The translations under genes were made by a program, and so were the position numbers. Positions 17,405 to 60,801 of a stretch of DNA of 64,000 nucleotides are shown piece after piece (position 1 is the first letter of the stretch; each line of letters opens with the position of its first letter). Under the pieces are notes generated by a model. That model had not been told where the DNA came from and did not search any database. It saw nothing but the letters and a program-made list of their open reading frames with translations. The stretch is from Streptomyces sp. NRRL F-5135 (GTDB lineage Bacteria > Actinomycetota > Actinomycetes > Streptomycetales > Streptomycetaceae), in contig NZ_JOHR01000009.1 in NCBI RefSeq assembly GCF_000719775.1, forward strand, positions 124,001 through 188,000. Reading direction: 5' to 3'.

Positions 17405-17637
17405 CTTTCCCCTCCTCGGCTCAAAGATCACCAACGCCGAGGGGGTGCCGGATTGTTTCCATGAGCGGCCGGGAGCGTGTGAAGGTGGAGTAAGGACGCG
17501 GGCCAAGGCCATAGTGGACGTTCCCATCCCACAGGGACACTCGAACGGCCAGATCCCACATGCGTCCCACAAAGCGCCTGACTACCCATCACGTATTCGA
17601 CAAAGCGCAGGTCAGAGCAGATCTTGGCTGGATACAG

Positions 17638-17686
17638 CAGGCGCCTTCTAAGCGCTTGGCCGCAGGTTCGAGTCCTGCCGGGGGCG
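17638..17686 (+). other. attR: 3' half of tRNA-Arg(TCT)
   Basis: The anticodon stem-loop (17640-17656, loop CTTCTAA, anticodon TCT), T-arm (GCAGG-TTCGAGT-CCTGC, 17662-17678) and 3' acceptor strand CGGGGGC plus discriminator G (17679-17686) are all present. The matching 5' acceptor GCCCCCG and a proper D-arm are absent upstream. This is the hallmark of an attachment site left after integration into a tRNA gene. The complete tRNA should sit at the other junction, outside the window on the left. Confidence 0.75.
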
Positions 17687-56158: not shown

Positions 56159-56173
56159 TACCCCCTGGGGGTA
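56159..56173. promoter_or_regulatory. CsoR-type copper operator
   Basis: TACCCCC-T-GGGGGTA is a perfect 15-bp palindrome. It matches the G-tract operators bound by CsoR in actinomycetes and lies 90 bp before the copper chaperone. Confidence 0.8.
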
Positions 56174-56263: not shown

Positions 56264-56527
56264 ATGGCCGCCGAGACACAGCCCGAGACCACCGACCGGA
56301 CCACCTCCCCCGACCAGGTCACCACCGTCTACCGTGTCACCGGCATGACCTGCGGACACTGCGAAGGCGCCGTCGCCGCCGAGATCTCCGAGATCGGGGG
56401 CGTGACCTCCGTGCAGGCCGTCGCCGCCACCGGAGAGGTCACCGTCGTCTCCAAGGCCCCGCTGGACGAGACCGCCGTGCGCGCCGCCGTGGACGAGGCG
56501 GGTTACGAGCTGGCCGCGTCGGCCTGA
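56264..56527 (+). CDS. copZ: Copper chaperone, HMA domain
   Basis: The protein is 87 residues. The first ~20 are polar. A single ferredoxin-like HMA domain follows: YRVTGMTCGHCEGAVAAEIS with the Cu(I)-binding M-x-C-x-x-C, then TGEVTVVSKAPLDETAVRAA and VDEAGYELAASA. It carries copper(I) to a P-type ATPase. GAGGAG lies 7 bases before the ATG. No copA is adjacent, so the partner transporter must be elsewhere. Control is likely by CsoR through the box at 56159. Confidence 0.92.
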   Translation: MAAETQPETTDRTTSPDQVTTVYRVTGMTCGHCEGAVAAEISEIGGVTSVQAVAATGEVTVVSKAPLDETAVRAAVDEAGYELAASA

Positions 56528-56593
56528 GCCGTCCCGCGCCCCGTCGGTTACCAACTCTTTGCACCGAAGAGCCTTCACATGAACCACAAGACC

Positions 56594-56622
56594 TTCACAA
56601 AGAGATCTAGATCACATAGATT
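56594..56622 (+). promoter_or_regulatory. Strong housekeeping-type promoter
   Basis: TTCACA (56594-56599) and TAGATT (56617-56622) are separated by exactly 17 bp, close to the sigma-70 consensus used by HrdB. The predicted start is about 56629. It has no conventional gene downstream. Confidence 0.7.
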
Positions 56623-56633
56623 GATGGGTAACC

Positions 56634-56768
56634 ATGAGGACAGCTCGCGAGTCTAAGAGGACGATGCCAGAGAACGTCTTGGGGGACGTTCAGCGGCATG
56701 TCAGGGGATGTCTTGGGGGACATCCCGGACAAGCGATTGGCCGGGGCACGTGCACCGGGGAGCTTTGA
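56634..56768 (+). CDS. Possible leaderless 44-residue peptide
   Basis: The first ATG of the predicted transcript is only about 5 bases from the predicted start, as in leaderless mRNAs. The frame reads MRTARESKRTMPENVLGDVQ then ends GRGTCTGEL. The duplicated unit gives M-P-E-N-VLGDV and, in another frame, M-S-G-D-VLGDI. It may be coding or simply chance within a structured RNA. Confidence 0.3.
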   Translation: MRTARESKRTMPENVLGDVQRHVRGCLGGHPGQAIGRGTCTGEL

Positions 56769-56874
56769 GCGGCCCTCCCGTACGTACCCCGGTCCGACCG
56801 CGCGAGTAGCCGTTGCTGGTTACGGCAGACGCCCGGCCCGGATCCCGTGGGGGGAATCCGCTCCGGGGATATGG

Positions 56875-56924
56875 AAAGCGCCCCGCTCGCCGACCCGTGG
56901 GGGGATCGGCGGCGGGGCGCTTTT
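56875..56924. terminator. Strong bipartite terminator (candidate RNA and citrate synthase)
   Basis: AAAGCGCCCCGC (56875-56886) pairs with GCGGGGCGCTTT (56912-56923), enclosing the 9-bp fourth hairpin. It is followed by TTTT on the plus side and by CTTTCC on the minus side, so it can end the candidate RNA and the minus-strand citrate synthase transcript. Confidence 0.85.
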
Positions 56925-57023
56925 CGGTGGCCCGGAAGCTCCGGAGGTGCTCGGAGACCCGGAGTACTCACAGACCCGGGGGCGCTCGGAGACCCGGGGG
57001 CTCCCAGCGGGGCTCAGAGGTGC

Positions 57024-58322
57024 TCAGCGACCCTCCACCGGAACGAAGTCACGCAGGACCTCGCCGGTGTAGATCTGGCGCGGACGCCCGATGCGGGAGC
57101 CGGGCTCCTTGATCATCTCGTGCCACTGGGCGATCCAGCCGGGCAGCCGGCCGAGCGCGAACAGCACGGTGAACATCTCGGTCGGGAAACCCATGGCCCG
57201 GTAGATCAGACCCGTGTAGAAGTCCACGTTCGGGTAGAGCTTGCGCTCGACGAAGTAGTCGTCGGCCAGCGCGTGCTCCTCCAGCTTGAGCGCGATGTCG
57301 AGCAGCTCGTCGGACTTGCCGAGCGCCGAGAGGACATCGTGCGCCGCCGCCTTGATGATCTTCGCCCGGGGGTCGAAGTTCTTGTAGACGCGGTGCCCGA
57401 AGCCCATCAGCTTGACGCCGTCCTCCTTGTTCTTCACCTTGCGGATGAAGGAGTCGACATCGCCGCCGGACGCCTGGATGCCCTCGAGCATCTCCAGCAC
57501 CGACTGGTTGGCACCACCGTGCAGCGGGCCCCACAGGGCGCTGATGCCGGCGGAGATCGAGGCGAACATGTTCGCCTGCGAGGAGCCGACCAGGCGCACG
57601 GTGGAGGTCGAACAGTTCTGCTCGTGGTCCGCGTGCAGGATCAGCAGCTTGTCCAGCGCCGAGACCACGACCGGGTCCGGCACGTACTCCTGCGCCGGGA
57701 CCGAGAAGGTCATCCGCAGGAAGTTCTCGACGTACCCGAGGTCGTTGCGCGGGTAGACGAAGGGGTGGCCGATCGACTTCTTGTACGCGTACGCGGCGAT
57801 CGTGGGCAGCTTGGCCAGCAGCCGGATCGTGGACAGGTTGCGCTGCGTCTCGTCGAACGGGTTGTGGCTGTCCTGGTAGAAGGTCGACAGCGCGCTGACC
57901 ACGGAGGACAGCATCGCCATCGGATGGGCGTCACGCGGGAACCCGTCGTAGAACCGCTTGACGTCCTCGTGCAGCAGCGTGTGCTGGGTGATCTCGTTCT
58001 TGAACGCGGCGAGCTCGTCGACCGTCGGCAGTTCGCCATTGATCAGCAGATACGCCACTTCGAGGAAGCTGGACCGCTCCGCCAGCTGCTCGATCGGATA
58101 GCCGCGGTAGCGGAGGATGCCCTGCTCGCCGTCCAGATAGGTGATCGCGGACTTGTAGGCGGCGGTATTGCCGTACCCGCTGTCCAGAGTCACCAGACCG
58201 GTCTGAGAACGGAGCTTCCCGATGTCGAAGCCCGTGTCACCGACGGTGCTGTCGATCACCGGGTAGGTGTACTCGCCGTCGCCGTACCGCAGAACTACCG
58301 CGTTGTCGCGTTTCTCGCTCAC
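57024..58322 (-). CDS. gltA: Citrate synthase
   Basis: The protein is 432 residues from the GTG at 58322, which has GTGAGGGA upstream. It is the type II hexameric form: RYRGYPIEQLAERSSFLEVA, the catalytic histidines in LHADHEQNCSTST and GFGHRVYKNFDPRA, and the catalytic aspartate in LYPNVDFYTGLIYRAMG. It joins acetyl-CoA and oxaloacetate in the TCA cycle. It sits alone with a terminator downstream. This is a core gene and marks ordinary chromosome. Confidence 0.96.
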   Translation of the reverse strand: MSEKRDNAVVLRYGDGEYTYPVIDSTVGDTGFDIGKLRSQTGLVTLDSGYGNTAAYKSAITYLDGEQGILRYRGYPIEQLAERSSFLEVAYLLINGELPTVDELAAFKNEITQHTLLHEDVKRFYDGFPRDAHPMAMLSSVVSALSTFYQDSHNPFDETQRNLSTIRLLAKLPTIAAYAYKKSIGHPFVYPRNDLGYVENFLRMTFSVPAQEYVPDPVVVSALDKLLILHADHEQNCSTSTVRLVGSSQANMFASISAGISALWGPLHGGANQSVLEMLEGIQASGGDVDSFIRKVKNKEDGVKLMGFGHRVYKNFDPRAKIIKAAAHDVLSALGKSDELLDIALKLEEHALADDYFVERKLYPNVDFYTGLIYRAMGFPTEMFTVLFALGRLPGWIAQWHEMIKEPGSRIGRPRQIYTGEVLRDFVPVEGR

Positions 58323-58593
58323 GTCATCCCTCACCGACGTAGTGCCTCTTCTTCGAGGTGCCCTGACTGTCTCTACCATCCCCCATTTGGCTCAGGAGAG
58401 TGCACTCGGGGTCGGCCATTTGGCCTTTTGGCGGCACTCAGTGCCGCCAGCCTGCCCATCCTGCCCCCTTCGCCCCGGGTTACGAAAGCCCGCATCACCG
58501 TTTCTTCCCAGGCTCGCACTCCGCCGGGCCCCTCGCCCCCGCTCCCCGGGACGGCCCCGGACGGCCGCAGGCGGCCCCGTGCGGCGCTCGCGC

Positions 58594-60801
58594 TCAGCCC
58601 GCGGCGCCCAGACGGTGGGCCAGCGCCGTACAGCGTCTGCCCGCGGAAACCGTCCGTACCGCCTGCCCGATGGCCTTGCGGGAACCGACGAGGACGACGA
58701 GCTTCTTCGCGCGGGTGACGGCCGTGTACAGCAGGTTGCGCTGGAGCATCATCCACGCGCCCGTCGTCACCGGGATGACCACGGCCGGGTACTCGCTGCC
58801 CTGCGACCGGTGGATCGTCACCGCGTACGCGTGCGCCAGCTCGTCCAGCTCGTCGAAGTCGTACGGCACCTCCTCGTCCTCGTCCGTCCGCACCGTCAGC
58901 CGCTGCTCATCCATGTCGAGGGAGGTCACCACCCCCACCGTGCCGTTGAAGACCCCGTTCTCCCCCTTCTCGTAGTTGTTCCTGATCTGAGTGACCTTGT
59001 CCCCCACCCGGAAGACCCGGCCGCCGACCCGCTTCTCCGGGAGGTCCGGCCGCGCGGGCGTGACGGCCTGCTGGAGCAGCCCGTTGAGCGCGCCCGCGCC
59101 GGCCGGCCCCCGGTGCATCGGCGCCAGGACCTGCACGTCCCGGCGCGGGTCCAGGCCGAACTTCGCGGGGATCCGGCGCGCCGCCACATCGACCGTGACC
59201 CGGCCCGCGTCCTCGGTCTCCTCCTCCACGAAGTGGAAGAAGTCGGCGAGGCCCTGAGTGAGGGGCTGCTGCCCGGAGTTGATGCGGTGCGCGTTCGTGA
59301 CCACGCCCGACTGCTGCGCCTGCCGGAAGATCCGCGTCAGCCGGACCCTCGGCACGGGGCCGCCCTCGGCGAGCAGATCGCGCAGCACCTCGCCGGCGCC
59401 CACCGAGGGCAGCTGGTCGACGTCCCCCACCAGCAGCAGGTGCGCTCCCGGCGCCACCGCCTTCACCAGCTTGTTGGCCAGCAGCAGGTCCAGCATCGAC
59501 GCCTCGTCCACCACCACCAGGTCCGCGTCCAACGGCCGGTCCCGGTCGTACGCGGCGTCCCCGCCCGGTTTGAGCTCCAGCAGCCGGTGCACGGTCGACG
59601 CCTCGGCACCGGTCAGCTCGGCCAGCCGCTTGGCCGCCCGCCCGGTCGGGGCCGCCAGCACCACCTTGGCCTTCTTGGCCCGCGCCAGCTCGACGATCGA
59701 GCGGACCGTGAAGGACTTGCCGCAGCCCGGGCCGCCGGTCAGGACCGCGACCTTCTCGCTGAGCGCCAGCCGCACCGCCTGCTCCTGCTCGGGCGCCAGC
59801 TCCGCGCCCGTACGCCCCGCGAGCCAGGTCAGCGCCCGGTCCCAGGCCACGTCGCGGAAGGCCGGCATGCGGTCCTCGCCGGTCCGCAGCAGCCGCAGCA
59901 ACTGACCGGAGAGGGACACCTCGGCGCGGTGGAACGGCACCAGGTAGACCGCCGTGACCGGATCACCGCCCTCCGGATCGGGCACCTTCTCCCGGACGAC
60001 CCCCTCCTCCTCGCCCGCCAGTTCGGCCAGGCACTCGATGACCAGGCCCGTGTCCACCGCGAGCAGCTTCACCGCGTCCGCGATCAGCCGCTCCTCCGGC
60101 AGATAGCAGTGGCCCTGGTCCGTGGACTGCGACAGCGCGTACTGAAGGCCCGCCTTGACGCGCTCCGGGCTGTCGTGCGGTATGCCGACGGCCTGCGCGA
60201 TCCGGTCCGCCGTCAGGAAGCCGATGCCCCAGACGTCCGCCGCCAGGCGGTAGGGCTCGTTCCGCACGACCGAGATGGAGGCGTCCCCGTACTTCTTGTA
60301 GATCCGCACCGCGATGGAGGTGGAGACCCCCACGCCCTGGAGGAAGAGCATGACCTCCTTGATCGCCTTCTGCTCCTCCCAGGCGGCGGCGATCCGCTTC
60401 GTCCGCTTGGGGCCGAGGCCCGGGACCTCGACCAGCCTTCCGGGCTCCTTCTCGATGATGTCCAGCGTGTCCAGGCCGAAGTGTCCGGTGATCCGGTCCG
60501 CGAACACCGGTCCGATGCCCTTGATAAGGCCCGAGCCGAGATAGCGGCGGATGCCCTGGATCGTGGCCGGCAGGACCGTCGTGTAGTTCTCGCACATGAA
60601 CTGCTTGCCGTACTGCGGGTGCGAGCCCCAGCGGCCCTCCATGCGCAGGGACTCGCCCGGCTGCGCGCCGAGCAGCGAGCCGACCACGGTGAGGAGGTCG
60701 CCGCCGCGTCCGGTGTCGACACGGGCGACCGTGTAGCCGTTCTCCTCGTTGGCGTACGTGATCCGCTCGAGGACCGCTTCGAGGACCGCTGGATTGGACA
60801 T
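58594..60801 (-). CDS. recD2: RecD2-type DNA helicase
   Basis: The protein is 735 residues. The N-terminal domain carries tandem helix-hairpin-helix motifs (IKGIGPVFADRITGHFGLDT, VPGLGPKRTKRIAAAWEEQK). SF1B helicase motifs follow: I VLTGGPGCGKSFTVRSI, II VVVDEASMLDLLLAN, III LLLVGDVDQLPSVGAGEVLR, IV-like RLTRIFRQAQQSG and VI YAVTIHRSQGSEYPAV. RecD2 acts alone, without RecBC, in 5'-3' unwinding and repair. The length is typical. Confidence 0.95.
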   Translation of the reverse strand: MSNPAVLEAVLERITYANEENGYTVARVDTGRGGDLLTVVGSLLGAQPGESLRMEGRWGSHPQYGKQFMCENYTTVLPATIQGIRRYLGSGLIKGIGPVFADRITGHFGLDTLDIIEKEPGRLVEVPGLGPKRTKRIAAAWEEQKAIKEVMLFLQGVGVSTSIAVRIYKKYGDASISVVRNEPYRLAADVWGIGFLTADRIAQAVGIPHDSPERVKAGLQYALSQSTDQGHCYLPEERLIADAVKLLAVDTGLVIECLAELAGEEEGVVREKVPDPEGGDPVTAVYLVPFHRAEVSLSGQLLRLLRTGEDRMPAFRDVAWDRALTWLAGRTGAELAPEQEQAVRLALSEKVAVLTGGPGCGKSFTVRSIVELARAKKAKVVLAAPTGRAAKRLAELTGAEASTVHRLLELKPGGDAAYDRDRPLDADLVVVDEASMLDLLLANKLVKAVAPGAHLLLVGDVDQLPSVGAGEVLRDLLAEGGPVPRVRLTRIFRQAQQSGVVTNAHRINSGQQPLTQGLADFFHFVEEETEDAGRVTVDVAARRIPAKFGLDPRRDVQVLAPMHRGPAGAGALNGLLQQAVTPARPDLPEKRVGGRVFRVGDKVTQIRNNYEKGENGVFNGTVGVVTSLDMDEQRLTVRTDEDEEVPYDFDELDELAHAYAVTIHRSQGSEYPAVVIPVTTGAWMMLQRNLLYTAVTRAKKLVVLVGSRKAIGQAVRTVSAGRRCTALAHRLGAAG

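Follow-up and report, generated by a model that had tools for sequence, protein, structure and literature searches.

The 64-kb window analysed here (the whole stretch of contig NZ_JOHR01000009.1 from Streptomyces sp. NRRL F-5135 under study; coordinates are positions within it) carries a series of conserved elements on its plus strand, convergent with the citrate synthase gene citA:

56602-56616, plus strand: upstream box GAGANNNAGATCACA, conserved in 87 loci
56628-56635, plus strand: GTAACCAT, conserved, proposed -35 element of a putative ECF-type promoter
56651-56656, plus strand: conserved GTCTAA, proposed -10 element, which would place the start at about 56662-56664
56664-56699, plus strand: hairpin 1, type A loop (UC-UUGGGG-GA)
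56700-56731, plus strand: hairpin 2, type A loop, covarying stem
56733-56803, plus strand: central domain with apical loop UUUGAGCG, the loop one U shorter in some loci
56831-56868, plus strand: hairpin 3, type B loop CCCGUGGGGGGA at 56844-56855 (RF02831 match at 56830-56894)
56874-56924, plus strand: hairpin 4, type B loop at 56894-56905, covarying stem and short U-run
57024-58379, minus strand: citA/gltA, citrate synthase (PF00285, 476.8 bits), a convergent neighbour outside the RNA

Other features of the window are separate from this series. Imperfect direct repeats of 14-22 nt resembling GGAGGTGCTCGGAGACCCGG lie between the RNA end and citA (56941-57030). A perfect palindrome, TACCCCCTGGGGGTA (56159-56173), which we take to resemble a CsoR-type copper operator (putative), precedes a small gene (56264-56527) that codes for an HMA-domain, copper chaperone-like protein. 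At 17625-17678 on the plus strand there is a partial match to the tRNA model; it covers model positions 8-63 of 71 and scores 34.4 bits (cut-off 29).

The original prediction described four hairpins with the loops UUGGGG, UUGGGG, GUGGGG and GUGGGG, and these are present at 56679, 56713, 56847 and 56897. Hairpins of six or more pairs that carry a [GU]UGGGG loop occur four times on the plus strand of the window, all within this locus, and once on the minus strand; when 56660-56926 was shuffled 5000 times with dinucleotides preserved, 4944 shuffles had no such hairpin, 56 had one and none had more. The fold of the locus stretch beats 100 of 100 shuffles on both strands. Hairpins 1 and 2 do contain the proposed duplication, as 24-nt copies that are 83% identical and lie 34 nt apart from start to start, with arms AACGTC/GACGTT and GATGTC/GACATC as claimed. 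The accompanying statement that the stems pair completely does not extend to hairpins 3 and 4, for which a GUGGGG hexaloop leaves a C.A mismatch at the third pair from the loop; in the computed folds of these two, CCC instead pairs with GGG, giving a 4-5 nt loop and one bulged A. As for the proposed U-tract terminator, a short U-tract (CTTTTCGG) exists, but a terminator scan gave no site by its own criteria; hairpin 4 is probably a terminator that the scan missed. The structured, conserved central domain at about 56733-56803 had been omitted altogether.

The Rfam covariance model RF02831 (Scr2736) matches 56830-56894 on the plus strand with 61.3 bits (gathering cut-off 43), the one match in this genome. 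All 64 positions of the 64-nt model are matched, from before hairpin 3 to the 5′ foot of hairpin 4, so that model and locus represent the same gene on the same strand, but the promoter, hairpins 1 and 2 and the central domain are not represented in the model, and most of hairpin 4 falls outside it. The Scr2736 gene itself is a known, catalogued sRNA: the sections of PMC8388888 that deal with it state that its expression in S. coelicolor was confirmed by Vockenhuber et al., that its homologue in S. ambofaciens is sRNA #10, and that the IntaRNA-predicted target of sRNA #10 is fabH of a PKS cluster. SCO2736/citA is the citrate synthase neighbour in S. coelicolor, according to the part of PMC6344877 that covers it. 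In the literature that we searched, which leaves most subscription journals outside it, we found no account of Scr2736 function and none of its full architecture, promoter element or loop-number variation; the main texts of PMC3765725 and PMC11678152 mention neither "2736" nor citrate synthase.

For comparison we assembled 112 loci plus the window. Four loci without citA (L032, L062, L107 and L111) were removed, leaving 109, and L001, which repeats the window, was removed as well, leaving 108 including the window. Among these, 97 have the promoter pattern and two copies of the type B 12-mer, six lack the exact promoter, and five lack the 12-mer pair in the expected orientation; 87 of the 97 were kept as non-redundant. 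The unit in relatives reads AGATCACA-N11-GTAACCAT-N15-GTCTAA, then one or two UCUUGGGGGA hairpins, the central domain and two CCCGUGGGGGGA hairpins, the last of them probably a terminator. Across the 87 loci, conservation runs from GAGANNNAGATCACA through GTAACCAT, GTCTAA, the UCUUGGGGGA hairpins and the central domain (conserved as GCCGGGGC ... GGGGAGCUUUGAGCGGCCCUCCC ... CCCGGC), then continues, beyond a variable linker, into hairpins 3 and 4. Since the Rfam model used covers hairpin 3 and the foot of hairpin 4 alone, conservation outside these parts was not forced by the way the loci were fetched; the choice of the 97 and 87 loci did require the promoter pattern and two 12-mers, so the conservation of those elements is partly a product of selection. 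We regard it as about an even call that the locus is, in all respects, a full-length Scr2736 sRNA gene of some 265 nt (about 56662-56924, plus strand) with its own ECF-type promoter, a probable terminator of its own and a role in multivalent capture.

Scr2736 is found across Streptomyces and other genera of the Streptomycetaceae. RF02831 matches 186 of 297 family genomes, and our search R1 matched 197 of 294 genomes in 10 of 17 genera, although its two matches in genus g14 are weak and the loci concerned (L156 and L157) have no exact 12-mer. In a sample of the class, matches were found in 33 of 345 genomes, all of the same genus. Search R2, run on 38 sources, located the central domain in 20 of them at E < 1e-4. 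It found none in five divergent genus members (L139, L140, L147, L152 and L155) nor in L050; the same five lack both an exact TCTTGGGG and the exact promoter pattern, and three of them (L139, L147 and L152) nonetheless retain TTGAGCGGCC. The other two, L140 and L155, have only one exact 12-mer each, as does an extra copy in genome G104 (L158).

The choice of strand depends on comparative data, which matter here because the z-score of the window alone is better for the minus strand (-9.07 versus -5.76). Over the 87 loci, the consensus structure of the plus strand contains 747 G.U cells against 94 A.C cells, compared with 333 against 304 for the minus structure, and the plus strand folds better in 83 of the 87. 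The balance of wobble pairs places the RNA on the plus strand. A functional RNA on the other strand, that is, a 6C-like RNA with C-rich loops in the citA 3′ region, as the original prediction loosely suggested, would gain from that single-window z-score and from the fact that hairpins 3 and 4 pair fully there through U.G pairs, but both the wobble balance and the fold energies over the 87 loci oppose it, the conserved promoter element is oriented the other way, and no RF01066 match was found on either strand of 56500-57030 at E values up to 1. We consider such a minus-strand RNA very improbable.

That the shape of the RNA is under selection, on the strand first proposed, is borne out by covariation. 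Of the 87 loci, 38 were kept as divergent; with L007 skipped, 37 sequences formed alignment A2 (hairpins 3 and 4), and 33 of these, after exclusion of L004, L038, L041 and L092 for length, formed alignment A1 (hairpin 2 and the central domain). A2 is 98.1% paired, with double changes in 11 pairs (72 cells), and A1 is 97.1% paired, with double changes in seven pairs (41 cells). In both alignments the double changes that keep pairing exceed those of all 500 shuffles; the observed covariation values were reached in none of 500, except for further pair types in A1 (10 of 500), and sliding the structures along the alignments lowers pairing to 37-76%. Nearly all of the covariation sits in hairpins 2 and 4. 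In the central domain and in hairpin 3 the pairs are nearly invariant, so that these parts count as conserved but are not proven separately by covariation; the invariance of the 12-mers within A2 is partly due to selection, since exact copies were required.

We also considered a small protein. Frames stay open in this GC-rich RNA, and among those that begin within the first 60 nt the longest has a median length of 96 amino acids (range 35-119 over the 87 loci); single-nucleotide length changes in the central loop and spacings between hairpins 3 and 4 that are not multiples of three argue against coding.

The loops are fixed in sequence, and their number varies. Two exact copies of CCCGTGGGGGGA are present in the expected orientation in 103 of the 108 loci; of the remaining five, four carry the pair on the opposite strand and L025 holds a single copy. 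In type B, either CCC pairs with GGG leaving a bulged A, or a hexaloop is closed by two pairs plus a C.A mismatch. The type A sequence TCTTGGGG is found at least once in all 97 loci selected on promoter and type B loops, twice in 75 and once in 22, which brings the total to four loops per unit in 75 and three in 22. Larger numbers occur occasionally: G017 (L149, 1308-1607) has three diverged tandem modules of 100 nt comprising hairpins 3 and 4, 94% and 80% identical to the first, and G012 has three type B loops. Three type B loops were found in one of the 74 judged loci among the matches listed in the contig scan described below. An exact 49-nt duplication in G136 is perhaps an assembly artefact. 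Elsewhere in the genome of the window's own strain, CCCGTGGGGGGA occurs three more times (one for a reversed-pattern control), never in a type B hairpin, and TCTTGGGGGA four more times (control seven); three of these four, L171, L172 and L173, fold as short hairpins within a 38-nt span. Part of the conservation of the type B loops could serve termination, as both adjoin the 3′ end.

A separate observation concerns three genomes of genus g7, in which a long single hairpin tipped with CCCGTGGGGGGA occurs in another place (in L160 on the minus strand about 1551 from the end; in L161 and L163 at 1551), in L161 downstream of a predicted secreted-protein ORF. This hairpin may be a terminator that was copied, or else a further RNA that displays an identical docking loop.

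The promoter originally read from the sequence, TTCACA-N17-TAGATT, exists in the window but is not what relatives share: TTCACA stands at exactly this position in 15 of the 87 loci, TAGATT in two, and both together in two (the window and L033). The composite element that is shared was used to scan contigs as AGATCACA-N9..12-GTAACCAT-N12..18-GTCTAA, which gave at least 118 stretches, of which 80 were listed (one from Kitasatospora, one from Microtetraspora and the rest from Streptomyces) and six of these 80 were too short to judge. Among the matches listed, the spacings are 11 and 15 in 80 of 80, and at least two copies of CCCGTGGGGGGA follow downstream in all 74 that could be judged; among them, the element belongs exclusively to Scr2736. 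Its core, GTAACC-N16-NGTCTAA, fits the examples of sigma-E-type ECF promoters (GGAACC-like -35, 16-17 nt, CGTCT-like -10) printed in the relevant part of PMC6767563, whose main text includes neither SCO2736 nor SCO2735. This resemblance may point to ECF control. HrdB ChIP-seq assigns 75 of 105 known S. coelicolor sRNAs to HrdB, as given in a portion of PMC6344877, and if scr2736 is among those 75, the ECF reading is weakened.

Farther upstream, the GAGANNNAGATCACA box reads GTG-N6-GTCTC on its opposite strand, one mismatch away from the Streptomyces Crp motif GTG(N)6GNCAC (from an excerpt of PMC10033298), and Crp may bind there. We rejected an MtrA site, as the region has only one half-site of the consensus GTAACCNNNNNGTAACC (quoted from part of PMC12323332). 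Upstream of citA, at 58379-58640, CGTAACCCGGGG contains GTAACC, like the proposed -35 element of the RNA and the MtrA half-site.

The RNA keeps company with citA but occurs independently of its orientation. Among 203 loci with the 12-mer pair, a set that may count some genomes twice, 187 are convergent to citA, nine lie on the same strand and seven could not be placed; the median gap in the convergent loci is 110 nt, and three of these lie 2.0-3.2 kb away. The order inverted from the usual convergent one, with the RNA on the citA strand, is seen in L051, L052, L056, L057, L139, L143, L144, L147 and L152. The prevalence of close convergent pairs would suit a cis-acting element, either a convergent antisense RNA or a bidirectional terminator controlling the end of citA, and the stem of hairpin 4 could indeed terminate both strands, but we think this explanation improbable given the nine same-strand and three distant loci, the RNA's own promoter element, and a structure and conservation that far exceed those of a terminator. 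Because the unit can be inverted or moved away from citA, Scr2736 would most simply be a trans-acting gene. Pairing with the citA leader was tried and rejected, as CCCCC does not occur between -260 and +60.

Loops that stay fixed while their stems drift, and that are repeated within one molecule in a number that differs between loci, give the RNA the build of a titrating molecule. The decoy RNAs CsrB/CsrC and RsmX/Y/Z have several hairpins with one repeated G-containing loop, and their number varies between species. Scr2736 may work like them, by a repeated G-rich hairpin loop in variable number, although we claim no homology; its loop is KUGGGG in place of the ANGGAN of the CsrB/Rsm RNAs, and its genome has no CsrA. 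Titration of CsrA itself, for which the repeated loops and modular copy number would speak and which the original prediction had raised in the form of a CsrA-like partner, has next to no probability in this organism: the genome has no PF02599 match (the controls matched in three of 14: E. coli, B. subtilis and T. maritima), and the loop lacks the ANGGA core. An unrelated protein would have to take the part of CsrA. Hfq is not known from the genus Streptomyces.

As a model, Scr2736 would be a multivalent decoy whose G-rich loops titrate either an RNA-binding protein or RNAs with C-rich loops. Each (C)KUGGGGG hairpin with its fixed closing pairs would form a docking site, to which type B would add its bulged A or C.A mismatch; several such sites on one RNA would draw the partner off its other targets, and the central UUUGAGCG loop may provide a separate contact. 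A protein partner seems slightly likelier than a C-rich RNA, since the odd A and the base pairs that close the loop vary no more than the loop does.

The alternative is a base-pairing sRNA, with the G-rich loops serving as seeds for C-rich mRNA sites or for C-loop RNAs such as 6C, that is, an antisense regulator or sponge. Scr2736 resembles 6C (RF01066) as a multi-hairpin actinobacterial RNA with homopolymer-like loops, and its loops are complementary to those of Scr2736: UCCCCCC, the complement of GGGGGGA, is found in both 6C loops in 30 of 30 fetched relatives as well as in the genome studied here, and 6C matches occur in 60 of 61 family genomes. Scr2736 differs from 6C in carrying G-rich loops on its functional plus strand and in lacking two loops of at least six C; a 6C-like match in this genome is at another site, G000:C13:66220-66295, and scores 43.4 bits, short of the 47-bit cut-off. 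PMC3765725 describes C-rich-loop sRNAs of Streptomyces that are expressed at high levels, including scr5583 and scr1434, to whose descriptions as conserved intergenic stem-loop sRNAs Scr2736 corresponds, except that its loops are G-rich and theirs C-rich. The best candidate for an RNA partner would be 6C. At the position of scr5583, which we take to be upstream of amtB, inspection by eye gave no clear candidate for a C-rich-loop RNA. Several points weigh against base pairing: at one position the type A and type B loops carry bases that cannot both pair with the same partner base, fixity extends to the closing pairs and to the odd A, 6C is present where Scr2736 was not found (e.g., G001-G004), C-G pairing energies do not discriminate, and the window holds no complement besides the antisense of Scr2736 itself. 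We view base pairing as a possible but doubtful explanation. Pairing with the ribosomal anti-SD sequence, another suggested partner, is unlikely by inspection, as the fixed loop is GGGGG and not GGAGG. An aconitase/IRE-type interaction and a G-quadruplex were weighed as hypothetical readings too.

Returning to the decoy model, we put it forward tentatively in a specific form: a CsrB-like decoy without CsrA, under ECF and perhaps cAMP-Crp control, whose KUGGGG hairpins would titrate a putative RNA-binding protein of the Streptomycetaceae or a network of C-loop sRNAs that includes 6C, with the dose tuned over evolution by the number of loops.

The Rfam entry spans roughly one fourth of the unit. 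Probes, deletions and target predictions designed from RF02831 would thus overlook the central domain and the type A loops, together with the greater part of hairpin 4. For work on how the many sRNAs of Streptomyces act, an RNA of this kind, conserved and with G-rich loops that recur unchanged, could be used directly as bait for a protein that binds RNA or for a network of interacting RNAs.
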